This document shows positions 1,469 through 15,637 of a stretch of DNA of 64,000 nucleotides, in pieces. Source of the stretch: Verrucomicrobiia bacterium DG1235. GTDB lineage: Bacteria > Verrucomicrobiota > Verrucomicrobiia > Opitutales > Opitutaceae. Made by a program: the position numbers and the translations under genes. The stretch's first letter is position 1, and each line of letters begins with the position of its first letter. Where the stretch lies: positions 3,782,335 to 3,846,334 of the forward strand of contig DS990592.1 of the NCBI GenBank assembly GCA_000155695.1, in the 5' to 3' direction. The notes beneath the pieces were generated by a model that ran no database searches, was not told the DNA's origin, and worked only from the letters and a program-made list of their open reading frames with translations.

Positions 1469-4400
1469 CTAGGAGCGCGAAAGGTCTACGATCCCTTGGA
1501 GATGTGACGATAGTTTCGCCAGTTCCTGCGCCGCTACCAAAGTATCATTCGCTCCCTCCGTCGTGCTCTGGGCAGAAGTGGACACACTTACGATATTCTC
1601 CGATATCTCCGTGCTGCCTCGAGAGGCTTCCGAAACATTACGAGCGATCTCGTTAGTGGTAGAAGACTGCTCGTCTACCGCACTCGCGATATTGTTCTGA
1701 ATGTCGTTGATCTGGGCGATGATCTGAGAAATCTCGCCAATCGCCGTTACCGCGCCCTCCGCATCACCTTGAATCGCTTCGATTTTCGAAGAGATGTCCT
1801 CAGTCGCCGCAGCTGTCTGCTTGGCAAGTTCCTTCACTTCATTTGCCACGACCGCGAATCCCTTTCCGGCCTCACCGGCGCGAGCCGCTTCGATCGTAGC
1901 ATTCAGAGCCAGAAGATTCGTCTGCTCAGCGATCGAAGTGATCACCTTGATGACCTCGCCAATCTCAACACTCGACGCCCCAAGCTTCGCCACAGTGGAA
2001 TTAGTATCAGACGCCACTTTCACCGCAGATGATCCCACCTGAGCGGCTTCTGAAGCACTCTTAGCAATCTCTCGAACCGAAGCGCTCATTTGCTCCGCTG
2101 CAGTAGCAACCATAGATATATTCGTAGCGACCTGCTCAGATGCAGAGCTAGCGACTCCAGCCTGACGAGCCGTATCTTCCGTATTCGTATTCATGCTTTG
2201 CGCGGTAGACGAAAGCTCTTCAGCCGCAGAAGACAAAGTCTGCGAATGCTCTGCTACAGAGCGAAGCGTCTCCTGGAGCTTTGCTTCAGCGACCTTCCGA
2301 TCCGTAATGTCAGACGCGAACTTGATGACTCGGAAAACCTTTCCGGATACATCGAAACGAGGATTGTAAGTCGCCTGTATCCACACGTCACTACCATCTT
2401 TTCCTAATCTCTTGTATTCAGCTGTCTGGAACTTCCCTTCGTTTAGCTCCTTCCAGAAACTAGCATACTCATGGGATTTTGCGTATTCCTGCTCGACGAA
2501 TATGCGATGGTGCTGCCCTTTAATCTCATCCAAACTGTAGCCAAGGCAATCGAGAAAATTCTGATTCGCGTTCAATATCATTCCCGCCGCATCGAATTCG
2601 ATGACAGCCTGATTTCGATTCGCTTCGGTAAGCTGGCGCTCATTATTCATAGCCGCAACTTTCGCTTCCGTGATATCAGTGGCAATCTTCACAATTTTAA
2701 ACACTTTTCCGACTTCATCCTTAACGGGTGCATAAACAGCTTGTATCCAAACTTCCCTGCCATCTTTCGACAATCGCTTAAAACTATTCGAAACACTTTT
2801 CCCCGCATTTAGATCGCTCCAGAAGTTCTGATACTCGTTCGAGTTCGCATAACTGTCCTCCACAAACATCCTATGATGCTTACCCACGATTTCTTCACGA
2901 GTATATCCCATCACACTTAGGAAATTATCATTCGCGCTTAGTATGTTTCCGCTCGTTTCAAATTCAATATAAGCAAAGGCGCTATCGATGGCATCTATAA
3001 CTCCCTTGCTGTTTTGACGCTCAATCTCCATCTCAGTGAGATCATAGCGAACACCAATATATTTTTTCGGTTTCCCATTATCACCCATCACTGGAGCAAT
3101 AACAGCATCCACGTAGTAAGGCGTTCCATCCTTCTTCAAATTCTTGATTTTCCCACGGAAGGTCTCACCTCGACCAATAGTCGACCATAGTTTTTTGAAT
3201 ACGCTCTTTGGCATATCCGGGTGACGGGTCATGTTGTGCCCTTGTCCAATCAATTCCTCACGATCATACTGAGAAACTTCGCAAAACCTGTCATTACAAG
3301 ATACGATCGTACCTTTTAAATCCGCTTCTGAAACGATACAGGTATGGTCCGCTATCGCAGCTCGAACCTTAAGTTCCGCTATCGCGATCCAATCAATTTC
3401 CTCGGATCCAAAAGTCTTTTTTAAACCAGAGCAGGCATTTTGAAGAGACCGACCTAAGTCCCCAATCTCGTCCTTAGATTCGCAATCTATGGAATGCTCT
3501 AGCTTTCCATCAGCTAGGCCTTCAATCGCTGTAACAGCATTCTTGATACGCTTTACGACAGGCCGAGCGACGAAGAAAACCAAACCCGTAACTCCGATCA
3601 CGATCGCGACCAGCGCCAAGATGATGTTCGTGTTGCGTATCGAACGAGCCAAAGCCGTGATTTCGTCTTTCTCGACCCGAACCATGGTAGTAAACCCGGT
3701 ACCCTTGAAACCGAGCACGGGAACGCTTCTCGCATAGCCAGCACCCTGCATATAGTCGCTGCCCTGCTGGTCGCTCTTGCGCTTGTGACGAGCCCACATC
3801 CCCCCCTTCGGAGGTGAGGTAGGATCAATTCCCACCCGAGCCGCCTCGACGCCAGCAGTCGCGAGATTCAAAGAAAACAAGGCATCCCTCTTACTCTCTA
3901 TATAGCCGTTGAATGTAGGGTCGACATCTACGATTACGCGACCGAGAGGATCCAAAACAGTGAGCTCTGCAGAGGCCAGCCCCATGGACTTAAGGTTCTC
4001 GTACTCGGATACGACAATCTCCTCCACTGTATCCGCGGCGAATTGGTTATGGAAATATCCCCGTACGTCGCCATCAAGATCCCGAATGGGCGCAGAAAAG
4101 GAAAGGCTCCACGCAGGAGCATTCTCCTTGTAAACTCTCTCAACGAGTTCGCTCCGACCCGCCTTGCCAAAAACGGTGCCTGAAAGAGCGTTAGAAGAAT
4201 CATAGGTCGAAAACTTCCCATTCTTCACATCCTTAAACCAGGATTCCCCTGAAAGATCTTCTCCCAAAAGCCCAGAAGTAGGGATCTTTGTCCCATCAGC
4301 CGCCACCGTATTCACCGCTGCGATACGACCTTCCGTATCTGTTACAATCGTTAGCGAATAACACCCGTAGGTCGTGACATACTTGTCGAGCATCGCATTC

Positions 4401-4660
4401 AAATCAGCGAGCTCCACTTCGTTCATCTGCGAGAGATTCCGATGAAACAGACTGTTCAGACTGAATGCCTGCACGTCTCCGTAACGTTCGAACAGATTTC
4501 TATCAATCTTATCCTGTACCGATCTAGCGGATACAGAAAGCTCGTCTAGGCTTTCGTCGATGACACCTTGAAAACGAACCTGAACGATCACGAGAACCGC
4601 GATAACTGGAAGCGCAATAAGAAGCGCTGTTGGCAATACGAGTTTGGTACTTAGCCGCAT
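1469..4660 (-). CDS. Methyl-accepting chemotaxis protein with periplasmic Cache domain, HAMP and three PAS domains
   Basis: A transmembrane chemoreceptor of 1063 residues that feeds CheA/CheW. TM1 is at about residues 8-28. A large periplasmic dCache-like sensor spans about 35-335. TM2 is at about 342-364 and HAMP at about 365-415. Three cytoplasmic PAS domains follow (about 440-545, 555-675, 680-795), then the MCP signalling domain with the conserved tip [23 protein letters not shown]1 resembles the FAD-binding PAS of Aer ([14 protein letters not shown]). PAS2 and PAS3 are near-duplicates of each other (HHR[MI]FVE, FW.[ED]LN.GK, DGR/DGS-VWIQA). The C terminus (VDLSRS) has no CheR-tethering pentapeptide. 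It lies 21 bp downstream of cheW, so it is probably the cognate receptor of this array, sensing both an external ligand and internal redox state. Confidence 0.93.
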
Positions 4661-4681: not shown

Positions 4682-5131
4682 TTAGACTTGTAAATCGTGA
4701 GAAAGAAATGACGCCGTAGAATCTGCGTCCAATACGTGAAGAAGGCGGTGCTCCAGCTTGTGGACACCCTTCAAAAATTCCCCTATATCCTCAGGAACGT
4801 TGCTCGGGGCCGGCTCGAAGGTATCAGCGGATACTTCAATCACTTCTCCAACCGAATCCACGACGAAGGCGCTTTCTCCGGTCTTTGCACGCGCAATGAT
4901 CAACATGGGCGAACTGCTTTCGGCGTCACGTTCTTCAAGTCCGAGCCGCACGCGCAGATCGATCGCAGTAAGAATCTGACCCCGCAGATTGAGAAGACCT
5001 TCTATGGTCGAAGGAGCGAGAGGTACAGGAGCCAAATTCGGACAACGAATCACCTCCTGAATAAAAAGCACATCCATCCCGAACAAGAGGCCGTCAAGTT
5101 CGAAGGTGCAAAGTTGAGTCGTGTTTTCCAT
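4682..5131 (-). CDS. cheW: Chemotaxis coupling protein CheW
   Basis: CheW links chemoreceptors to CheA. The 149-residue product is a single CheW domain beginning TTQLCTFELDGLLFGMDV. It carries the hallmark IEGLLNLRGQILTAIDLR (about residues 43-60), where the NLRG arginine is the canonical receptor/CheA contact. It starts 5 bp after the cheA stop, which indicates translational coupling. It ends 21 bp before the MCP start. The conserved FVVDSVGEVIEV segment is present, and nothing is unusual in length or motifs. Confidence 0.95.
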   Translation of the reverse strand: MENTTQLCTFELDGLLFGMDVLFIQEVIRCPNLAPVPLAPSTIEGLLNLRGQILTAIDLRVRLGLEERDAESSSPMLIIARAKTGESAFVVDSVGEVIEVSADTFEPAPSNVPEDIGEFLKGVHKLEHRLLHVLDADSTASFLSHDLQV

Positions 5132-5136
5132 CTGAA

Positions 5137-7494
5137 TCAGGCTACACTTTGTGGAGGGTTTAAGCCGGCGGATTTCAGCACCGAGGGCACATCTATGATA
5201 TCCGTTATCTCACCCTGCATCACAGCAGAGCCCAAAAGTCCTGGCCGTGTACCGGATCCCTGGATACTTGCTGATTCCTCGATAATATCGCGAATCCCCC
5301 CTACCACCAGACCTACGTATCGCCCGCCGCATTCATAGACGATAACTTGAACGACCTGAGGCTCGATATCCACCGCACCAGACCCGATGTGATCGGCTAG
5401 GCGAACCAGTCGCATAATGCCTCCGCGATACAAGACCGACTCTCCGCTGCCCGATCGCTCGATCGCGCTTAAGTCGAACTCCTCCAAGCGCTCCGCGGCC
5501 TCCAAAGGCACCGCTAGGCGATTCCAGCCCGGCAAAGAGAAAATGATAAACGAATCCTTCTTGCCAGATTCGATCTCCTCTTCGCCAGCGGCCTGAGACG
5601 CTCCCAATTCGTTTTGAGAAGTATTAAGAACTCCCGCATGTTTGGCGACTCCCACCGCATCAAGAATAATAGCTACGGAGCCATCCCCCATAATGGTCGC
5701 GCCAGCATAGAGAGGAAGTCCTTTGAGTTGATGCCCCAAAGGCTTCACCACAATCTCTTCCGTATCGCTGACTTCATCGACCACCAGACCGAAAATTTGA
5801 CGATCCGCGCGAAGCACTACGATACTGATCGTAGTTGGCGCCTCAGCCTTCGGTTTGGAAATCTTAAGGGCCCGATCAAGGAAAACCAGTGGCAGCAGTT
5901 CTCCCCTAAGACGAAACACTGGAGAATCGTACACTTGCTCTACCGCCTCGACAGCCTGGTCTCCTTCCAGTCGAACCAATTCCACTAGACTCACCTGAGG
6001 AATCGCAAAACGCTGCGCCGCGCTCTTGACCACCAAAGCCGGCACTATCGCCAACGTAAGTGGAATCTTAATACGCAAGGATGTTCCCCGGCCAATGCTA
6101 GACTGGATATCGACCGACCCCCCGATTTTCTCGATATTGGTCTTAACCACATCCATGCCCACTCCGCGGCCAGATACATTGCTCAGTTTTTCCGCCGTAG
6201 AGAATCCGGGCAAAAAGATTAGATTGATCATCTCGCGCTCGGTAAGCCGGGTCGCTTCCTCGTCCGAAATCAAGCCCTTGTCGATCGCTTTGCGGCAAAC
6301 TCTCTCTCCATTGATACCAGCTCCATCATCAACGATTTCGATGTTCACCTGTCCGCCTTCATGGAAGGCTCGCATGAGAAGCTGAGCCACCGCTGGCTTG
6401 TCCGCTGCCGCTCGCTCTTCCGGAGACTCGATTCCATGATCCACCGCGTTTCGGATAATATGAGTCAGCGGATCCTTGATAGCCTCGATTATCGTCCGAT
6501 CGAGCTCCGTATCAGCCCCGAACGTTTCCAAGCTAACTTGCTTCCCCAAGTCGCTCGCAAGGTCACGCACGATACGCGGGTACTTTCCCCAAACCGAGCC
6601 AATCGCTTGCATACGCGTCTTCATCACGCCTTGCTGCAGTTCCGTCGTCACTTGATTAAACCTCTGGGAGAGGGACGAAATTTCAGCCGGGGTAATCACA
6701 CGCTGCTGGCTAACCTGCAAAAGCTGGTTTCTAGACAGCACTAACTCTCCAACCATGTTCATCAAAGTATCAAGTAGATCGACATCTACTCGCACCGTGG
6801 CGCCCGAGACCTTTTCAAGCTTCCTGCTAATCTCCGGAGTTTTTTCCTTGGGCTTTGTATCCAAATTCTCTTTCGCCACCGAAGCCTCGCCGGAAGCTTC
6901 AGCAACATCGAACAGCCCCCAACCCGCGGCCGCTTCTTCAGCGACTACAGGCTCAGAAATCTCTGCGGCCAGAGCTTCCACCGTCGGCTCATCGTCCTCG
7001 AAAAGTCCCCAACTCCCATCAACTTCCTGATGATGATTCACCATTGGATCCAGTGCGAGCTCGTCTACGTCTGCACTCCCCAAAGGCTCGCCCTTTTTAA
7101 CGGAATCCAGAAGACTCCTCAAATCATTGTACTCCCCAGCCGACTCGTCCGAGCCACACGACTCGATCACGTCCAGGATCGCCCTCAACGCGTCAGAAAG
7201 CTTCAACAAGGCGTCCGCGATGTCCGGCGTCGACTCCAATTCCCCATCCCGCATCATCGAGAGCACATTCTCTCCCGTATGAGCAATGCTCTCGATTCGG
7301 TTGAAGCCCAAACATCCAGCCGTTCCCTTAATCGTGTGCACAACCCTGAACACTTGATTGAGCAGCTGCGGATCGCTATCGCCCTTCTCAATCTCGAGCA
7401 AATCCTGGTCAAAGGTCTCAAGCCCCTCCGAACTCTCTAGCAGAAAGTCCTTTATCAGCTCCGCCTGCAGGTCATCGTTGATATCGCCGGACAT
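5137..7494 (-). CDS. cheA: Chemotaxis histidine kinase CheA with two C-terminal CheW-like domains
   Basis: CheA is the kinase that phosphorylates CheY and CheB. In 785 residues it has an N-terminal HPt domain with phospho-His53 (VVHTIKGTAG), then an acidic linker (about 130-230) instead of a recognisable P2 domain. The dimerisation segment is near 235-300 (LMNMVGELVLSRNQLL). The ATPase core carries the N box (HIIRNAVDHGIESPEER), a DDGAGI motif and GRGVGMDVVK. A first CheW-like domain spans about 500-625 and a second, more divergent one about 640-775. The linker holds two copies of a WGLF(E/D) motif (162-166, 192-196). It starts 13 bp after cheY. The tandem CheW domain may let one kinase contact extra coupling surfaces in the array. 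Confidence 0.95.
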   Translation of the reverse strand: MSGDINDDLQAELIKDFLLESSEGLETFDQDLLEIEKGDSDPQLLNQVFRVVHTIKGTAGCLGFNRIESIAHTGENVLSMMRDGELESTPDIADALLKLSDALRAILDVIESCGSDESAGEYNDLRSLLDSVKKGEPLGSADVDELALDPMVNHHQEVDGSWGLFEDDEPTVEALAAEISEPVVAEEAAAGWGLFDVAEASGEASVAKENLDTKPKEKTPEISRKLEKVSGATVRVDVDLLDTLMNMVGELVLSRNQLLQVSQQRVITPAEISSLSQRFNQVTTELQQGVMKTRMQAIGSVWGKYPRIVRDLASDLGKQVSLETFGADTELDRTIIEAIKDPLTHIIRNAVDHGIESPEERAAADKPAVAQLLMRAFHEGGQVNIEIVDDGAGINGERVCRKAIDKGLISDEEATRLTEREMINLIFLPGFSTAEKLSNVSGRGVGMDVVKTNIEKIGGSVDIQSSIGRGTSLRIKIPLTLAIVPALVVKSAAQRFAIPQVSLVELVRLEGDQAVEAVEQVYDSPVFRLRGELLPLVFLDRALKISKPKAEAPTTISIVVLRADRQIFGLVVDEVSDTEEIVVKPLGHQLKGLPLYAGATIMGDGSVAIILDAVGVAKHAGVLNTSQNELGASQAAGEEEIESGKKDSFIIFSLPGWNRLAVPLEAAERLEEFDLSAIERSGSGESVLYRGGIMRLVRLADHIGSGAVDIEPQVVQVIVYECGGRYVGLVVGGIRDIIEESASIQGSGTRPGLLGSAVMQGEITDIIDVPSVLKSAGLNPPQSVA

Positions 7495-7507: not shown

Positions 7508-7873
7508 TTAGTTTGGTAGTACTTTTGACACTACAGCCAGTAGCTGATCCTGACTGAAGGGCTTGACAATCCAGCCGGTCGCTCCCGCAGCCCTGCCCGC
7601 AGACTTTTTCGCCGGGTCAGATTCCGTAGTGAGCAGAACGATCGGCACGGACCTGTATGCGGGAAGCGTCCTTAGGCGACGCGTAAGCTCTATGCCATCC
7701 ATTCTCGGCATGTTCACGTCCGTGATCACTAGGTCTACTTGGTTTCGTTGAACGGTATCGAAAGCTTCAATACCGTCGGCTGCTTCGAGCACTTGGTGTC
7801 CGGCTGATTTCAGAGTAAATCCAACCATCTTGCGCATCGTAGCCGCGTCATCTACTGTTAGAATTCTTTTCAT
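7508..7873 (-). CDS. cheY: CheY-type response regulator, first gene of the che operon
   Basis: A single receiver domain of 121 residues: TVDDAATMRKMV acidic pocket, phospho-acceptor Asp52 in VITDVNMPRMDG, switch residues in LLTTES, and lysine in VKPFSQDQL. This sequence is the type often encoded directly ahead of cheA and is probably the main CheA phosphorylation target. It is the promoter-proximal gene of the minus-strand che operon, and cheA begins 13 bp after its stop. The start ATG at 7873 gives the family's normal N terminus (MKRILTVDD). Confidence 0.93.
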   Translation of the reverse strand: MKRILTVDDAATMRKMVGFTLKSAGHQVLEAADGIEAFDTVQRNQVDLVITDVNMPRMDGIELTRRLRTLPAYRSVPIVLLTTESDPAKKSAGRAAGATGWIVKPFSQDQLLAVVSKVLPN

Positions 7874-8215
7874 TGGGTCAGTGGTATGAAGAAATCAAGG
7901 AAGGGGAAATGTGGTGTATCCTCGATTTCGGTGTGAGCTATCTATCGTTCAAAATTTCAGAAATCTAAGTAAACAAACGGTAATAGTTTTTAAGAGTTAC
8001 CTTCCATTATCGTTCGCCTCCCACTGAGATGCAGTTCGCGCTCTCCACAAGTGCATACGCCTTTTTGACGTATTTTTAAGTACTTCCAGCAACCGCCTTC
8101 AAACTGACTTTAAAGTCTATTTACCAAATTAGTATTGTACTCGGTTCAGCTTTAAAAAGAGCTTGAAAACTTACAGTTCACATCCGCATTACCTATTAGA
8201 ACTTAATAAGTTACA
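7874..8215. promoter_or_regulatory. Divergent intergenic region between che operon and partner-switching operon
   Basis: This 342-bp AT-rich stretch contains no convincing coding frame. It separates the start of the minus-strand che operon from the plus-strand PP2C/kinase gene, so it must hold both promoters. It includes the imperfect inverted pair GGTAA...TTACC around 7979-8001. I could not assign -35/-10 boxes with confidence. Shared control of both operons from this spacer is an inference from geometry. Confidence 0.5.
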
Positions 8216-9793
8216 GTGCCTAACCGATCAAACGGTTCCATGGCCGCACCGACCAGCTCCGAACGACCGCATGTGCTATTAGTAGACGACGACAGAGTGT
8301 TCCGCACACTCGTCGGCTCCTTATTGAACCGCTGTAATTACTTAGTCACGACCGCAGAAACAGCGGCCGAGGCTTGGCAATCGCTTCAGTCCAAAGGATT
8401 CGGAAACTTCGATGTCGTTGTATCCGATTATTGGATGCCAGGACAAACCGGGCTCGACTTGCTCAAATCTATCCAGCTGAAAGATTCGACCTTGTCCGTC
8501 GTGCTCATGACTGCCGACAGCGAGAAAAAGATCCTAGAAAAGCTGATACAGTATGGCGGATGCGGTTTCCTACAGAAACCAGTTACTAAATATACGCTAA
8601 GAGATGCCGTTGAAAGAGCGCGCGAGCGTACTAAGTGGATGCGTCATCTTCAAACAACGGCTAACGAAGCGACCACTCTCGGCGAAAACCAACGCACCCT
8701 ACTTCACAGGCAACTCAGTCTGACCTGGCCAGAGATCGAATTTTTCTTCACATCAAAGTCTCAAGCAAGCGGCGATTTCGTATCCTCAATTACACTACAA
8801 GACAATCAACGAATACTACTCGCCTCCGACGGTTCAGGACATGAGCTCTCTTCCGCCTTTCAGTCCAACTACTTCCACGGCCTCGCCCGAGGCATGCTGG
8901 TGAAGGGAGCTCCCATAAATGAAGTCTTCGATTATTTCAACGAGGCCCTGCTCCAAGAGTGGAACAACGAGAACACCGTGGGACACTCGGTAGCGGCATG
9001 CGCCGTTCAGTTCGACTATGAGAATCAAACACTCTCCGTCTTAAATGCTGGCTTCCCCTGTCCAGTAGCTTCGGACCTAAACGGATTTGCCCGCCCCCTC
9101 GGAGGGGAGATAGGATCCCCACCGCTCGGCTGGTTCTCCGGCGCCAACGAACCCGAACTCCATAGCATGAGCCCGGGTCGCCTCTACCTCTGGACCGATG
9201 GACTCGGAGATTTAGCGGAGAGCCTCGATATTGACCCCCTCGCACTCGCGGATCGACTCCTGAACAAATCTCGTCCCGCAAGCACGCTCGTAGCCACCGC
9301 CCGCGACGACATAGCTGTCATGAGACTAAAAACGCCCAAGGCCACGGACTACGATGATTCATCCGTTCCCCTCATCTCTGTCGACATACCAGGAGACCAA
9401 TTCGAGGAGATCGACAAGTGGCAATCGTACTGCGAGAGAAGCATTCGAATCGCGATCGAAGATATAGACGCCGATCTCCTCTCCGAGATACTCGTCTGCA
9501 CGCGTGAAGGCCTGATCAATGCCCTCAAGCACGGCTGCGAAGGATTCGCAGATCGCAAGACCAGCCTGAAGGTCGCTCGCTCAGTCGACTTCAGCGAAAT
9601 CAAGGTCCTCATAGAAGACCCCGGCCTCGGGCACGATTTCAACTGGGAAACCCACGCCACGGAGGCCGCGGAAAACCTCATCCCCGAGCACCGAGGCCTG
9701 ATCATGATGCAGGCCATTCCCCAGCGCATCGACATTTCAGACAACGGGTCACGCGTGCAAATGGCATTCACCCACAACCCATCCGCAAACTAG
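8216..9793 (+). CDS. Response regulator fused to PP2C (SpoIIE/RsbU-type) phosphatase and anti-sigma-type histidine-kinase-like ATPase
   Basis: A three-part switch protein of 525 residues. The receiver domain (about 18-135) has the LLVDDD acidic pocket, phospho-acceptor Asp71 (VVVSDYWMP) and KP (LQKPV). The PP2C phosphatase (about 165-340) keeps its metal-binding aspartates in SGDF, ASDGSGHE, LWTDGLGD and ARDDIAV. The GHKL/RsbW-like ATPase (about 395-520) carries EGLINALKHGC and EDPGLGHDF. The order matches the HsbR type known in Pseudomonas, which dephosphorylates or phosphorylates a STAS antagonist, and a STAS gene follows 3 bp downstream. The start is the GTG at 8216. The in-frame ATG at 8240 is an equally possible start. 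It diverges from the che operon, so CheA may phosphorylate its receiver (inference). Confidence 0.88.
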   Translation: MPNRSNGSMAAPTSSERPHVLLVDDDRVFRTLVGSLLNRCNYLVTTAETAAEAWQSLQSKGFGNFDVVVSDYWMPGQTGLDLLKSIQLKDSTLSVVLMTADSEKKILEKLIQYGGCGFLQKPVTKYTLRDAVERARERTKWMRHLQTTANEATTLGENQRTLLHRQLSLTWPEIEFFFTSKSQASGDFVSSITLQDNQRILLASDGSGHELSSAFQSNYFHGLARGMLVKGAPINEVFDYFNEALLQEWNNENTVGHSVAACAVQFDYENQTLSVLNAGFPCPVASDLNGFARPLGGEIGSPPLGWFSGANEPELHSMSPGRLYLWTDGLGDLAESLDIDPLALADRLLNKSRPASTLVATARDDIAVMRLKTPKATDYDDSSVPLISVDIPGDQFEEIDKWQSYCERSIRIAIEDIDADLLSEILVCTREGLINALKHGCEGFADRKTSLKVARSVDFSEIKVLIEDPGLGHDFNWETHATEAAENLIPEHRGLIMMQAIPQRIDISDNGSRVQMAFTHNPSAN

Positions 9794-9796
9794 CCA

Positions 9797-10093
9797 ATGA
9801 ACTCAACGGACCGCACTTATAAAGCGCCGGGCGATGTAGTAAGCACCGTCGCCCAAGAATGCTGGAAAGAGATCGAAGCCAATCTTGCCCAATTGAAAAA
9901 ATCCGAGACTCTGGTACTCGACCTCAGAGCCTCGCGAATAATCGATTCAGTCGGACTAAACGTAATCGTGAAAGCCATCAAAGTCGCTGATTCAATAGAA
10001 GCGAAAGTGAAAATACTGGTCGGAACGGAAAGCGTAAAACGCATCTGCATTTTCACGCGACTCGATAAAAAGGCGGAAGTCATCGGACCTTAA
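9797..10093 (+). CDS. STAS-domain anti-sigma-factor antagonist (RsbV/HsbA-like)
   Basis: A 98-residue single STAS domain. The phosphorylation-site motif is RIIDSVGLNVIV with Ser51 following Asp50, the position equivalent to the regulatory serine of SpoIIAA/RsbV. The start is 3 bp after the stop of the PP2C/kinase gene, indicating translational coupling. In known systems the kinase part phosphorylates this serine and the PP2C part removes the phosphate, so this is the expected substrate of the upstream protein. Its final binding partner is not identifiable from sequence. The next gene in the operon is a natural candidate. Confidence 0.88.
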   Translation: MNSTDRTYKAPGDVVSTVAQECWKEIEANLAQLKKSETLVLDLRASRIIDSVGLNVIVKAIKVADSIEAKVKILVGTESVKRICIFTRLDKKAEVIGP

Positions 10094-10116
10094 AACTAGC
10101 CTCCCGCAACCCACCC

Positions 10117-11898
10117 ATGAATCGACTCTCAAAAACCCTCTCGCCGCTTAGGCTTCCGATACTCGCAAGGTCTCGCTCACGATCATTTCGAGTCAACACA
10201 CAGCCTGCCCGCGATTCACTGCAACTCGCGATTGAAGAAATCGGAAGCGCATTCGGCAGCGTGGGCTCTAGCCTCGACTCGCTGAGCGATCAAACGCATC
10301 GGCTAAAGGACAATTGCCAAGTCTTAGTCGACGCCTCCAGCGGTCAAAGCAATAGCTCTATCCTAATCAAACGAGCGGCAAAAGCCTTGGAAGCGCCCAT
10401 CCAATACATTGGCTCCAGTATCTACGAAAGGCAAAGCACCTGCAGCCTGCTCTCCAACTGCGAAAAGTCGGCCACCAAACTGCTGCAGCGGCAGAACGAC
10501 ATGAACTCCGCCCTGCAACCCCTCAAATTCATGCTCGTCTTTTTCAAGATCGAAGCAGCCCAGCTTTGCGCGGAAGATCAAGCCACCTTCAAATCGGTAT
10601 CAGAGGAAATCTCCCGCCTCCACAAGCTCGTTGACGACACCTTCGGCAAGAACATGAAGCAGCTTGAAGCGGCCCGCGCCGCGACATCCGAAGCGGAAAA
10701 ACAAGCCAACCAGCAAACCGCAAAGCAAGCGGAAGAGATCGAAAAAAAACAGCAGGACCTCGCCCAAACAATCGATAGACTCAATCAGCAGATAGAAAAA
10801 AATCAGCTCGAAGAATCAGACCTAAACTCAGCTACCGGCAAATTTGAGAGCGCCATCGGCAGGCTCATCATGTCACTGCAATACGAGGACATCTTCCGAC
10901 AGCGATGCGAAACCATTCTCCAAGCCTTCGACGAGCTAAAGGAGGAAAACGCAGACCGGGCATGGATCCTAGTGCAGGCTAAGCAAATTGAAACCGCCGC
11001 CAAAGAGCTTCGCGAGTCTGCAGAAGAAACGCTCACAGGGCTCGATTCCATTTCGCAGCAAGCCAAAGAGCTCTACCGCATTTCCGCCACCATGGATCAA
11101 TTCGAGCACAACACCGCATCCGCTGACGGTATGGTGCAAACCCTGCTCGAAGCATTCGAATCCATCCGAGACATCCTCAAGAAAAACAAAGCCCTCGCCG
11201 CCGACTCCAAAACCGCGATCAAGCCTGTTCAAAACCTCACCGAAGATCTCTCCGCAGTCGTGTTCGAGGTCTCCATGAATATTCAATTCATCGCCCTCAA
11301 CGCTCAAATTCGCTCCATCCAAGTCGGAGCGGGCAGCGGGCTCGAAATCCTCGCAGCCCGTACTGCGGAGATTTCCTCCGAACTGAGAGAGCTAGGCGAT
11401 ACCACTTCAGCGCAAATAACCGAACTTCACCAGACCGTGAACAGTCTCACCAGAGCCATTGAAACTGACTTCGAAGGAGTATCACACACGCTTGATGAAC
11501 TGGATGAAAGCAGCCAGAAAATCGAAGCGGAACTGCACGACCTAAGAGACGGAGCCCTAAATTCGCTAAGCCTCATCGCCGATATGCTCGGATCAGTGGA
11601 AAGCCTGATCACAGGCGATCGAAACAAGCTCACCCGCATTTCCTCCATCGCCGACACCCTAGAGGATCGAGTCGCCGAGCTCGTCAGCCAGGCCAAGCTT
11701 CAAAAGCTCTCCGCCAAGGACAGAGCGCTCCTGGAAGAAGAGGTCGAGCAACGCCTCCAGAAAGTTCGCGGAGCCATGCACACGCGCGTTCCCACCGAAC
11801 TCGCAGATACGGATTCGATGCTGGCGATATCAGAGAAACAATCCAGCCGCCGCGAGTCGGCTGTCTCCCTGAGCTGCGACAATATCGAGCTCTTCTGA
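10117..11898 (+). CDS. Cytoplasmic helical signalling protein with CheZ-like DxxxQ motif and degenerate MCP-tip segment
   Basis: I know no precise family for this 593-residue protein. It has no signal peptide or transmembrane segment and is almost entirely helical, with a charged coiled coil at about 165-235. Residues 254-264 read LQYEDIFRQRC. Asp258 and Gln262 reproduce the spacing of the CheZ phosphatase pair (D143/Q147, motif DLTGQ). Residues 389-420 (NIQFIALNAQIRSI then an ILAARTAEIS stretch) mirror the hairpin tip of chemoreceptors (NLLALNA-IEA) but with key residues changed. The last residues (SCDNIELF) form an acidic-hydrophobic tail like the CheY-binding tail of CheZ. It lies 23 bp after the STAS gene. 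I infer a chemotaxis modulator, possibly a CheY-P phosphatase controlled by partner switching. Confidence 0.7.
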   Translation: MNRLSKTLSPLRLPILARSRSRSFRVNTQPARDSLQLAIEEIGSAFGSVGSSLDSLSDQTHRLKDNCQVLVDASSGQSNSSILIKRAAKALEAPIQYIGSSIYERQSTCSLLSNCEKSATKLLQRQNDMNSALQPLKFMLVFFKIEAAQLCAEDQATFKSVSEEISRLHKLVDDTFGKNMKQLEAARAATSEAEKQANQQTAKQAEEIEKKQQDLAQTIDRLNQQIEKNQLEESDLNSATGKFESAIGRLIMSLQYEDIFRQRCETILQAFDELKEENADRAWILVQAKQIETAAKELRESAEETLTGLDSISQQAKELYRISATMDQFEHNTASADGMVQTLLEAFESIRDILKKNKALAADSKTAIKPVQNLTEDLSAVVFEVSMNIQFIALNAQIRSIQVGAGSGLEILAARTAEISSELRELGDTTSAQITELHQTVNSLTRAIETDFEGVSHTLDELDESSQKIEAELHDLRDGALNSLSLIADMLGSVESLITGDRNKLTRISSIADTLEDRVAELVSQAKLQKLSAKDRALLEEEVEQRLQKVRGAMHTRVPTELADTDSMLAISEKQSSRRESAVSLSCDNIELF

Positions 11899-12145: not shown

Positions 12146-15100
12146 ATGCAACGCCTTTTCCCAAACCTTTTGATCATGTTCCTCACGGCTCTTTGCGTGC
12201 AGTCGCTTCATTCGGAGGACATCGAACTACCAGACGCCCAGCTCGAAAGCCTGATCCGAGACTCCCTCGGCAAACACGACGGGGCCCTCACTGATTCGGA
12301 TCTCGCAAGCCTCACTTCCCTCAACTCCGGCTCCCTCGTCTCGGAAACAAAAATCAGCGATCTTACTGGAATTGAGTACGCGACGAACCTCACAGAACTC
12401 ACGCTACGATTTCAAACAATCGAAGAATTAAGCCCGCTCGCAAGCCTGGCAAACCTCGAACAGCTCGACCTCAGCGGCAACCCGATCACAGACCTCACGC
12501 AACTCGGTTCCCTCGCACAACTTCGCGTGCTCTCCATTTCCGAAGCCGAGATAACCGACCTCACCCCCCTCGCGAGCCTAAGCAGCCTTCAATGGCTGTT
12601 TCTCAGCAAAAACTCCATTTCGAACCTGAGCCCCATCGCTGGAATCGCCACCCTCTCGTATTTGGATTTTGAGGACAACCCGATCGCCGACTTCTCGCCC
12701 CTTAGCCAGATCACCACACTGACCACCCTAAACCTGAGAAACACCGGCTTCAATAGCCTCGCACCGCTCGCTCCCCTCAAATCCCTGCGAAGCCTCGACG
12801 CTAGCGAAAACCTGCTCTCCTCGCTCGAAGGCCTAAACCAATTACCCCAGCTCCAGCAATTCCAAGTCAGCGACAACTACCTCACAGACATCACCCCACT
12901 CGCCGAAATCGCCACCCTCCAGCTCATCGCCCTCAACCGAAACTTCATAGACTTTACCGCAGGCACGCCCAACGCCGACACCCTCTCACTTCTCCAAAAC
13001 GCCGGCGTCTCCATCAGCAGCCTCGTTCAAAAAACTCCCACCCTCGAGCTTTCCGACAATGCCGTCGAAACTCCATATTACGGAAGCGGCGGAAACGGCT
13101 CGATCAACATCACAACCAACTCCCAATGGGAAGCCAGCGTCGACTCCAGCTGGCTCTCCCTCACCTCCCAAGGCGACGGTTACGGAGACGCCACCCTTTC
13201 CTTCTCCGTCATCTCCACGCCGGATTTGTTCGGTCCCAGAACCGCCACCATCACCGTCAGCACTCCACAATACGAAGAAAGCTTTGAAATCGAGCAACGC
13301 CCCTACCTCGAAGTAGTATTCCCAGATCCCCAGCTAGAGCTCGCCCTCCGCGTCGCCCTCGACAACTTCGACGACCCCATCACCGACCACCAGCTCGAAA
13401 CTCTCAACACCCTCAGCGTACCCCTAGGCCCCTCCGCTAAGGAATCCATCAAAATCACCGATCTCACCGGCCTCCAATACGCAGACCAGCTGCAAAACAT
13501 CTACCTCGACAACCACGCCATCTCGGACATCTCCCAGCTCGCCGGATTCGTTAAGCTCAAGACCCTCTCCCTTTCCAACAACCTTCTCAACGACCTCACC
13601 CCGCTCAAGTTTCTCACCGCCCTCCAAACCCTAAACGTCGACAACAACTTCATCCCGCTCTCCGACACCCAGCAGAGCTCTGTCATAAATTCACTGGTAA
13701 ACCGAGGCGGCACCGCCAAAACCGAACCCCAGCTATCGACCACCTTCTCATTCTCCATCGATGACGACACCTTCGGACCCGAAGGCGGAAGCGGCACCCT
13801 CTTTGTCGAATCAAACGATGCTTGGGAAGCCGCCTCCGACACGGACTGGATCACATTTGACAACGGATCTACCGGCACTCGCGTCGGCTCAATCAAATTC
13901 ACCGTCTCCGAATTTCTCGAGCTCTCCACACCCCGCGTAGCCACTATCTCAATACACGACCAAACGGTGACGGTTACGCAACGCCTTCCTGAACCTATCG
14001 CGTTCACCGATCCAGATCTCGAAACGGTCCTCATCGAAAAACTCGCCCTGGAGACGGAATACGTTACCGACTTCGACCTAGAAAACCTGCTCGACCTCGA
14101 ACTGATACGCGATCCATTCGACCCCGAAGACCCAGATATCAGCTCCCTAAACGGCCTCCAGCACGCGGTCAACCTAGGCAGCCTCTCGATATCAGGCCAC
14201 ACCACAATCTCGCTCGACCCCATCGCATCGCTCGATTCCATCACGAACATAAACGTATTAAACGCCTCACTACAAAATATAGACGCCCTATCCCAACTCA
14301 CTCGGCTCGAAACCATAACTCTCAAGAACTGCGGTCTATCCTACATACCTATCCTCAACTGTGAGGACTCACTGATAAGCCTAGACCTCGGAGACAACAA
14401 TATCGTCGACATCGCGCCACTTACCCCTTTGTCGAAAATCGAAACCCTCACGCTCAACTACAATCCCATCGAAGACCTGAGCGCGCTCGCCGAACTCCTC
14501 GAAATCAGCTACCTCGATCTATCCGGAACACAGCCCTCAGATCTCGCCCCGCTACAAGGTCTTTCAAAAGTGAATACACTCAACCTTTCGGAAACCGAGA
14601 TCTCCGAGATCAATGCTCTCTCCTCATTTAGCGCTCTCATCTCACTCGACATCTCCGCCAACCAAATAGTCTCACTCGAGCCCCTCACCACCATCACAAG
14701 CCTCACCGAGATTTACGGCTTCAGCAACGAAGTCGAAGACCTCACCCCCATCCTTAAACTCCCCAATCTCGTTCGAATCGAGTTCCCCTGGAACAAAGTA
14801 CACGACCTAAGCCCCTTCCTCATATCGCCAAACGTCGAACACCTAGACCTGAGCTTCAACTACATCACCGACCTGTCCCCCATCACCAATCTACCCAACC
14901 TCAAGGAACTCTCAGTCCAAGGCAACTTCCTCGACCTCAGCTCCGGCTCCGCTCAAAACGAACACCTACAAACCCTCTCCGAACAAGGAGTCACGGGCTC
15001 ATTCGACTTTCAAAGAGCTCTCAGCGGTACCGTAGAAAGTTCAGCCTTCTCGGTTGGTCCGGAAAAAAAAACGCTATCGACTAATTTCACCACCACCGGG

Positions 15101-15637
15101 CGCCTAAAAGCCAGCACGTCGGCGAATTGGATCAGCTTCGACTACGACCCATTCGCCGGAACAGGTCCCCTCGAAATCCATGTCGACGAAAACGACTTCG
15201 GCGTTTCTCGCAACGCGCTCATCGACTTGGGATTCGCCATTATCACCGTAGAGCAATCCTACGACGCAAACTGGACCGCCTACCTCAATTCACTCGGACT
15301 CGATCCCGCCGCGGCCGAAAATCGAAAAGACGCCGACAGAGATGGCGACGGCCAAAGCAACGAATTCGAATCCCAAACTGGCTTCGATATGTCTGACGCA
15401 TCCTCAAAATTGATCTTCCGCATTATCCCCAACACCGCATCCGAAAACAGTTTCTATATCCATTATTCCCCTACAAATCCCGGGTACAGTGGACAGATCC
15501 AATTCAGCTCTGACATGGAAACCTGGGAAACGATTTCTGAGGAAAACAGCACAGAGGTGGAAAACTACCAAATCATTCACCACACGCCCACCAGCACGCC
15601 CACCTACTATCGTCAAAACATCACCCCGATCAACTAG
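12146..15637 (+). CDS. Large secreted protein of three leucine-rich-repeat blocks alternating with three BACON-like domains
   Basis: 1163 residues with a Sec signal peptide (about 1-23, MQRLFPNLLIMFLTAL core). SDS22/internalin-type LRRs (L..L.L..N.I.DL.PL) fill about 60-290, 440-505 and 690-955. Each block is followed by an Ig-like BACON-type domain with the W..S/T..W(L/I).(L/F) pattern (about 300-387, 530-615, 965-1050). Blocks 2 and 3 begin with a repeated pre-LRR cap (FPDPQLELAL, FTDPDLETVL), and the cap before block 1 is similar (LPDAQLESLI). Near 1090 is an acidic DADRDGDGQSNEFE loop typical of thrombospondin-3/EF-hand-like calcium sites in verrucomicrobial exported proteins. The C terminus is a beta-rich tail with no recognisable sorting motif. 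It is likely surface-exposed or secreted, for binding to proteins or glycans. The gene is strongly C-rich in the plus strand. Confidence 0.85.
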   Translation: MQRLFPNLLIMFLTALCVQSLHSEDIELPDAQLESLIRDSLGKHDGALTDSDLASLTSLNSGSLVSETKISDLTGIEYATNLTELTLRFQTIEELSPLASLANLEQLDLSGNPITDLTQLGSLAQLRVLSISEAEITDLTPLASLSSLQWLFLSKNSISNLSPIAGIATLSYLDFEDNPIADFSPLSQITTLTTLNLRNTGFNSLAPLAPLKSLRSLDASENLLSSLEGLNQLPQLQQFQVSDNYLTDITPLAEIATLQLIALNRNFIDFTAGTPNADTLSLLQNAGVSISSLVQKTPTLELSDNAVETPYYGSGGNGSINITTNSQWEASVDSSWLSLTSQGDGYGDATLSFSVISTPDLFGPRTATITVSTPQYEESFEIEQRPYLEVVFPDPQLELALRVALDNFDDPITDHQLETLNTLSVPLGPSAKESIKITDLTGLQYADQLQNIYLDNHAISDISQLAGFVKLKTLSLSNNLLNDLTPLKFLTALQTLNVDNNFIPLSDTQQSSVINSLVNRGGTAKTEPQLSTTFSFSIDDDTFGPEGGSGTLFVESNDAWEAASDTDWITFDNGSTGTRVGSIKFTVSEFLELSTPRVATISIHDQTVTVTQRLPEPIAFTDPDLETVLIEKLALETEYVTDFDLENLLDLELIRDPFDPEDPDISSLNGLQHAVNLGSLSISGHTTISLDPIASLDSITNINVLNASLQNIDALSQLTRLETITLKNCGLSYIPILNCEDSLISLDLGDNNIVDIAPLTPLSKIETLTLNYNPIEDLSALAELLEISYLDLSGTQPSDLAPLQGLSKVNTLNLSETEISEINALSSFSALISLDISANQIVSLEPLTTITSLTEIYGFSNEVEDLTPILKLPNLVRIEFPWNKVHDLSPFLISPNVEHLDLSFNYITDLSPITNLPNLKELSVQGNFLDLSSGSAQNEHLQTLSEQGVTGSFDFQRALSGTVESSAFSVGPEKKTLSTNFTTTGRLKASTSANWISFDYDPFAGTGPLEIHVDENDFGVSRNALIDLGFAIITVEQSYDANWTAYLNSLGLDPAAAENRKDADRDGDGQSNEFESQTGFDMSDASSKLIFRIIPNTASENSFYIHYSPTNPGYSGQIQFSSDMETWETISEENSTEVENYQIIHHTPTSTPTYYRQNITPIN

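Follow-up and report, generated by a model that had tools for sequence, protein, structure and literature searches.

The 64 kb stretch of DNA analysed here, which we call the window, comes from Verrucomicrobiia bacterium DG1235 (parent assembly G000, 5.8 Mb) and contains a chemosensory (che) gene cluster lying back to back with three rightward genes, two of which encode a putative partner switch of the PP2C/GHKL/STAS kind and the third a helical protein that we call P3. The first of the three (8216-9793, + strand, with a GTG start at 8216) encodes a 525-residue fusion combining in one protein a receiver domain (residues 20-133, PF00072), a PP2C/SpoIIE phosphatase domain (200-381, PF07228) and an HATPase_c_2 kinase domain (415-517, PF13581). 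It is followed after 3 bp by the gene for a 98-residue STAS protein (9797-10093, +; PF01740, 1.3e-6) with the serine motif IIDSVGL, and this in turn after 23 bp by the gene for P3 (10117-11898, +), whose 593 residues include the motif Q255xxD258xxxQ262, predicted hairpin tips at about residues 148-151 and 404-407, and the C-terminal tail DNIELF. The three genes are as the first-pass annotation had described them, and its comparison of the first two with the HsbR/HsbA system also holds, the receiver-PP2C-GHKL fusion and the STAS protein both being present with their key residues. An alignment of the window fusion with 17 relatives shows conservation of the receiver Asp, the PP2C motifs (GGDF/SGDF, D..GH, [TS]DG and DD) and the kinase N-box (RE...N..HG), the exceptions being an N-terminal truncation in L080, Ala at the receiver Thr in L085 and L086, and an altered G2 box in L043 and L047.

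The intergenic region that separates the divergent units spans 342 bp (7874-8215), and beyond it a complete che operon runs leftward on the - strand, as had been proposed and as domain matches bear out. It begins with cheY1 (7508-7873; PF00072, 1.8e-28, and the neighbourhoods of relatives), directly before cheA (5137-7494; Hpt, H-kinase_dim, HATPase_c and two CheW-domain stretches), and continues with cheW (4682-5131; PF01584, 2.2e-28), a chemoreceptor (MCP) gene (1469-4660; HAMP, three PAS stretches and MCPsignal above cut-off, and a Cache match below its cut-off), a second single-domain receiver, cheY2 (1052-1426; PF00072, 1.4e-25), and cheB (1-1041; receiver and CheB methylesterase, PF00072 and PF01339, the latter at 1.6e-61), which continues past the left edge of the window. 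The next gene, just outside the window, is cheR (L132:13431-14285; PF01739, 2.3e-53).

The association of P3 with chemosensory genes extends well beyond this locus. We searched 200 genomes of the same family with a P3 profile (A1) made from 36 proteins (38 rows, with L054 and L059 left out), keeping hits at about 160 bits or more, counting split genes once, and dropping second pieces in G172 and G194 together with weaker, mostly MCP-like matches. This gives 42 P3 loci in 31 genomes, those of G108, G172 and G194 being partial. CheA (PF02895) is present in 90 of the 200 genomes, including all 31 that have P3, and it lies within 10 kb of P3 at 34 of the 42 loci; the remaining eight comprise five with no CheA match on the contig, two with CheA more than 100 kb away, and one with CheA at 10.2 kb.

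Forty of the 42 neighbourhoods were read (all except G056:C16 and G108:C519), and a STAS gene lies near P3 in 28 of them. A PP2C gene and a STAS gene stand together beside P3 in 16, namely the window, L038-L050, L054 (at a contig end) and the decayed L055, and che genes lie alongside in 14 of these, with none in the 6.6 kb read downstream in L047 or in the 19.9 kb of L055. Because it recurs in 16 of 40 neighbourhoods, the association of fusion, STAS and P3 is more than chance; conserved linkage in related genomes, suggested earlier as a check, holds for the link to the chemosensory cluster. The other 12 neighbourhoods with STAS lack a PP2C gene, and here STAS always has P3 on one side and the cheY ahead of cheA on the other, with other sequence intervening in L064-L066, L073 and L074. 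Beyond the 40, PP2C and STAS also occur together in L080, L084, L085 and L086, STAS without PP2C in L119-L122, and neither in L087 or in L089 (for the latter in 1.1 kb upstream).

Two side observations concern individual P3 loci. One genome of the same genus, G127, has three P3 paralogues on contigs C8, C11 and C21 (L060, L074 and L072), two of them with a Ser-less STAS nearby and none with PP2C in the stretches read. In L069 (7608-8687) and L067 (8333-9146) two CheY-like receivers precede P3 with no CheA match nearby, and a small frame between the two receivers of L069 matches the Hpt end of CheA; a relay without a local kinase is possible at these loci.

The STAS proteins of the two settings differ in their phosphorylatable serine. 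At the alignment position that corresponds to the known phospho-position of SpoIIAA/RsbV, Ser is present in all 21 distinct rows of STAS proteins linked to PP2C, the window included (24 of 24 fetched rows, four of them contigs fetched twice, with the window row added). STAS proteins with no PP2C gene in the locus have Ser in none of 22 alignable rows, and carry Thr, Ala, Leu, Met or Ile instead; this set numbers 23, and L063 is not alignable at the position. All 20 of the 23 that were scanned against Pfam match STAS or STAS_2 at E < 0.001 (the 20 are all but L063, L065 and one of two rows from L058). The corresponding phospho-position of HsbA is reported as Ser56 (PMC5085249). Since both Ser groups coincide with phylogenetic groups of the P3 tree, the rows in these counts are not independent. 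In these rows Ser is found only with PP2C, and STAS is found in the che setting without PP2C; the Ser therefore travels with the enzymes and STAS persists without them, which is the best argument for a chemosensory role of STAS that is independent of a sigma-factor switch. A contig of Candidatus Synoicihabitans palmerolidicus (L055/L088) has fragmented PP2C and P3 genes and has lost the Asp preceding the STAS Ser, and the module looks as if it is decaying in that bacterium.

The usual gene order of the PP2C class runs in one direction as PP2C, STAS, P3, cheY, cheA, cheW, mcp, cheY, cheB, as seen, as far as the contigs reach, in L044-L046, L048-L050, L054 and L080. The che block is flipped, giving the divergent layout, in six loci of the same genus (the window and L038-L042) and in L043. 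Given the one-direction order elsewhere, the divergent layout of the window is a local rearrangement of a conserved set. The earlier picture of two separate operons, one of three genes and one of che genes, was accurate for the genes and their layout and mistaken about the unit, which is a wider set of STAS, P3, cheY and cheA. STAS adjoins P3 and not cheY in the 16 family loci with PP2C, and the STAS and P3 frames overlap by 1-4 bases in L045, L047 and L055. Outside the family, in L084-L086, the PP2C-STAS pair is flipped, and STAS and P3 are separated by the PP2C gene; this arrangement and those of the plasmids described below differ enough that the set is not one frozen operon.

P3 is a family without a Pfam name, and this is the central finding of the analysis; no Pfam or NCBIfam profile matches the window protein above its cut-off. 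In an alignment of 56 rows, from Verrucomicrobiota and seven alphaproteobacterial plasmids, Q255, D258, Q262 and N395 are present in all 56 and F158 in 55. Most Verrucomicrobiota rows have the motif context L-Q-[FY]-[QE]-D-x-x-x-Q, often with Ser, Ala or Gly before the Leu. A hhalign comparison puts D258 and Q262 on D143 and Q147 of E. coli CheZ in exact register, and P3 residues 230-285, a region picked after the motif was known, align with CheZ at E 0.007, above 200 of 200 shuffled CheZ sequences. A tail such as DNVELF ends most P3 proteins after a variable linker. The C terminus of CheZ binds CheY, and the P3 tail recalls it. The motif fits the published CheZ signature, in which AXXF(Y)Q stands next to DXXXQ (PMC7750401). 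P3 thus resembles CheZ (PF04344) in a DxxxQ mostly preceded by F/Y and Q/E and in a short conserved C-terminal tail that follows a low-confidence stretch, and differs from it in length (593 residues, compared with 214 in E. coli) and in having an MCP-like C-terminal half.

That C-terminal half of the family profile matches the cytoplasmic structures of MCPs, including 2ch7 (E 1e-7) and 3g67; among 403 structure matches of the P3 profile MCP cytoplasmic domains come first and coiled coils next, and CheZ is not among the best 60. MCPsignal is matched at E<=1 by 3 of 36 P3 members. An AlphaFold model built with 14 sequences is all-helical with long hairpins (pLDDT 78.6, pTM 0.57), and the two best Foldseek hits of this model are McpB models, with designed bundles and pore proteins scoring nearly as high and CheZ not among the best 50. 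P3 is therefore like the MCP cytoplasmic domain (PF00015) in its helical hairpin, the ALNA near its tip and its profile matches; unlike an MCP, the window P3 has no Pfam match to MCPsignal, HAMP or a sensor domain, shows no transmembrane segment by eye, is predicted to have two hairpins, and has an altered tip pattern (ALNAQIRSIQVGAGSG). Tip residues of Tsr have roles in CheA and CheW binding, and with the tip changed canonical binding of CheA/CheW by P3 is doubtful. The third protein had been called CheZ/MCP-like from the window alone, and at the level of the motif and the C-terminal half the family agrees. We also considered P3 as an internal duplication and make no such claim, as its halves align weakly, coil-like and out of tip register (hhalign probability 82).

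A tree of P3 (56 rows, L055 left out, midpoint-rooted, with the long branches L087 and L089 meeting) places all 19 PP2C-linked rows inside one set of 31 rows (96/90). The other 12 rows of this set are ones with no STAS found, and two more such rows lie outside it; the rows with STAS and no PP2C branch outside the set, as do the plasmid rows. The four neighbourhood labels change 7 times on the tree, compared with 29.7 in shuffles. Under this midpoint rooting, the PP2C/kinase gene was probably added within a single clade. A simple reading would have STAS and P3 as the older association, with the enzymes added in the 31-row set and lost several times, and more than one gain of the enzymes is also conceivable.

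The plasmid relatives were reached through the P3 of one family member, which finds a 'hypothetical protein' in a che cluster of a Sphingomonas plasmid. This protein aligns with the P3 profile (hhalign probability 96, E 3e-9), keeps the motif, and has a C-terminal tail ending in LF; as a query it returns 16 plasmid records. The seven plasmid loci that we opened, that of Sphingomonas and six of the 16, are each alphaproteobacterial and contain STAS-cheY-cheA...cheB plus P3. The small gene directly before cheY is present in all seven, and each of its products matches STAS_2 at E < 0.001, four of them above the curated cut-off of STAS or STAS_2. P3 follows cheB in L143, L145, L147 and L148; in L144 it lies past cheB in a tail-to-tail orientation, and in L146 and L149 it and the che block diverge. 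Profiles detected no PP2C domain in the seven loci; plasmid relatives of the PP2C fusion occur in eight records, and in the three stretches opened no che genes are annotated. On plasmid p1 of Agrobacterium leguminum a gene for a receiver-HD phosphohydrolase (L144:24903-26045) lies beside STAS-cheY-cheA, in the place that the PP2C fusion occupies near P3 in Verrucomicrobiota, a hint that this position can take different outputs. Some of the alphaproteobacterial P3 clusters may be of the rhizobial Che2 kind, a guess prompted by an account of Che2 that calls its function poorly known (PMC8429497).

Comparison with described systems helps to place these parts. The fusion resembles those of HsbR-HsbA in P. 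aeruginosa and CrsR-CrsA in S. oneidensis, in which, as outlined in PMC6482189, a receiver-PP2C-GHKL protein is encoded next to a STAS protein whose Ser can be phosphorylated; in the accounts of HsbR/HsbA, the fusion acts as a kinase until phosphorylation of its receiver makes it a phosphatase, and the STAS protein changes its partner according to its Ser (PMC6482189, PMC5085249). Unlike those systems, that of the window lies beside a cheA cluster with P3, its operon has neither an Hpt gene nor a diguanylate cyclase gene after STAS, and the genome has no FlgM by Pfam. A second comparison is with S. meliloti, where by the description of a review (PMC12654446) CheS is a STAS-only protein of the che cluster that binds and acts on CheA, and CheT is a non-CheZ DXXXQ protein that dephosphorylates one of two CheYs. 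Compared by description, the window STAS is like CheS in being a STAS-only protein encoded in a che cluster and unlike it in having a Ser and its own kinase/phosphatase; P3 is like CheT in being a che-cluster protein with a DXXXQ motif and unlike it in its length of about 600 residues with two predicted long hairpins. By these analogies the present cluster would best be read as joining an HsbR/HsbA-type switch with CheS/CheT-like parts. A literature search by titles and abstract openings found no paper on a che cluster with STAS, PP2C and P3.

From this comparative evidence it is likely that STAS and P3 are both chemosensory parts, and the chances that P3 is a receiver phosphatase seem to us evenly balanced. 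The chain of events that we favour would begin with the PAS-bearing receptor setting the activity of CheA, which would phosphorylate CheY1, CheY2, CheB and probably the receiver of the fusion. The state of that receiver would decide whether the fusion dephosphorylates the STAS Ser through its PP2C domain or phosphorylates it through its GHKL domain, as in HsbR/HsbA, and one form of STAS would bind an accessory protein of the chemosensory system, for which P3 is the most likely candidate and CheA a possible one. P3 in turn would most likely speed the loss of phosphate from CheY1~P, a role suggested by its combination of MCP-like hairpins with a CheZ-type DxxxQ motif, and the switch would thereby set signal lifetime or gain. 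That Pfam finds no CheZ in the DG1235 genome, which has two CheA and one FliG, is in keeping with such a role for P3. The phosphotransfer, the STAS-P3 binding and the phosphatase activity in this chain are all steps that we infer. A chemosensory cluster with such a built-in serine-phosphorylation switch is a tentative proposal, to which we give somewhat less than an even chance. A broader version, in which MCP-like hairpins form the basis of a new CheY-P phosphatase class, P3, present in at least two phyla and gated by STAS, with the STAS Ser phosphorylated by a CheA-fed PP2C/kinase in one Verrucomicrobiota clade, is rather unlikely to be right in full.

Partner switching by PP2C, GHKL and STAS proteins is known mainly for freeing sigma factors, and here the comparison of loci links it with CheA and CheY, the chemosensory core, as well as with P3, a family with a CheZ-like motif. 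If the proposed chain is true, a single circuit driven by the receptor would combine His-Asp with Ser phosphorylation, and a kind of switch whose usual targets are sigma factors would determine how long the chemosensory signal itself persists. The chain would also provide a candidate function for a 'hypothetical protein' recurring in che clusters of Verrucomicrobiota and Alphaproteobacteria.

Several observations weigh against this chain. P3 is uncommon in the phylum, occurring in 35 of 387 genomes at E<=0.001, of which only 11 are above 100 bits. No STAS was found near P3 in 12 of the 40 neighbourhoods, so that P3 can exist without STAS, at least locally; four profile rounds over frames of 60-260 residues in those loci added no weak STAS up to E 0.5 (L053 begins at a contig end, and its upstream side is outside this search). 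These 12 loci are in 11 genomes, of which G012 and G019 carry the triad at another locus. A fusion search of the other nine finds a nearly full-length fusion elsewhere in G188 and G164, in both away from P3 and with no STAS found in the short flanking stretches (a CheB-type gene comes after the one in G164), and in the other seven, among the matches listed, only receiver-length or other partial matches. The fusion receiver may be fed by a kinase other than CheA; beside the PP2C-STAS pair there is a hybrid kinase with Hpt in L084 and a receiver-Hpt gene in L085. By Pfam the DG1235 genome has four CheX, a possible alternative source of CheY-P phosphatase activity. The identification of P3 as a CheZ by Pfam profile fails, with no match for the window protein, and CheZ is not among the 25 best of 138 Pfam families matched by the 36 members; the A1 profile against one CheZ sequence gives a weak E of 0.067, the P3 body gives E 0.09 (above 198 of 200 shuffles, with 2 of 200 as high), and the choice of residues 230-285 for the stronger shuffle test was post hoc. 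Foldseek returns nothing for the P3 model at E<=0.001 and no PDB match at that level.

Among the rival explanations the one that survives best has STAS working as CheS does, binding CheA and altering the flow of phosphate among the CheYs, with the PP2C/kinase switching STAS on and off CheA and P3 acting as a separate phosphatase or scaffold untouched by STAS. Because a STAS protein acting on CheA has a precedent in CheS, CheA is as good a STAS target as P3, and in the S. meliloti system as reviewed (PMC12654446) the CheA-binding STAS-only protein and the DXXXQ phosphatase are likewise separate. The position of STAS directly before cheY-cheA and away from P3 in all seven plasmid loci also fits, as does the PP2C gene that separates the two in L084-L086; the adjoining STAS and P3 genes of the 16 family PP2C loci, overlapping in three, argue for the other partner, and overall we consider this rival unlikely. 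Less probable still is an ordinary partner switch of the HsbR/HsbA/CrsR type, in which the che cluster does no more than provide the input, and STAS or the GHKL domain acts elsewhere, on a sigma or anti-sigma factor. The same domain order is described as acting on FlgM/FliA, RpoS and HsbD in Pseudomonas and on RpoS in Shewanella (PMC6482189, PMC5085249). The DG1235 genome has six further SpoIIE matches, one of them below cut-off, and eight other STAS matches, two in short frames (140 and 182 residues) and the rest in frames of 513-646 residues, a size typical of SulP-type transporters. Annotation of the cluster shows no sigma or anti-sigma gene, and Pfam finds no FlgM in the genome, other sigma regulators being outside this search; a sigma switch also does not predict a Ser-less STAS without PP2C in the same che setting. 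The remaining rival makes P3 a scaffold or adaptor of degenerate receptor-like type that lacks phosphatase activity, with Q..D...Q as a structural or docking site; it draws on the match to 2ch7, the McpB models, the three MCPsignal members and the residue N395, which lies close to the second tip and is no less invariant than the motif, and is improbable given the changed MCP tip and a CheZ-register DxxxQ in 56 of 56 rows that would be unexpected in a mere scaffold.

Two further observations concern other genes. Directly after P3 in the window is a 1163-residue frame (12146-15637, +) in which leucine-rich stretches are seen by eye to repeat. Elsewhere, in a che cluster without P3 (L127:14204-16070 and L133, G021:C51), a receiver-PP2C protein, an HATPase_c_2 protein and a STAS protein that also has the Ser are encoded by three genes directly before a CheA-receiver fusion; by its gene content this is a second coupling of partner switching to CheA.

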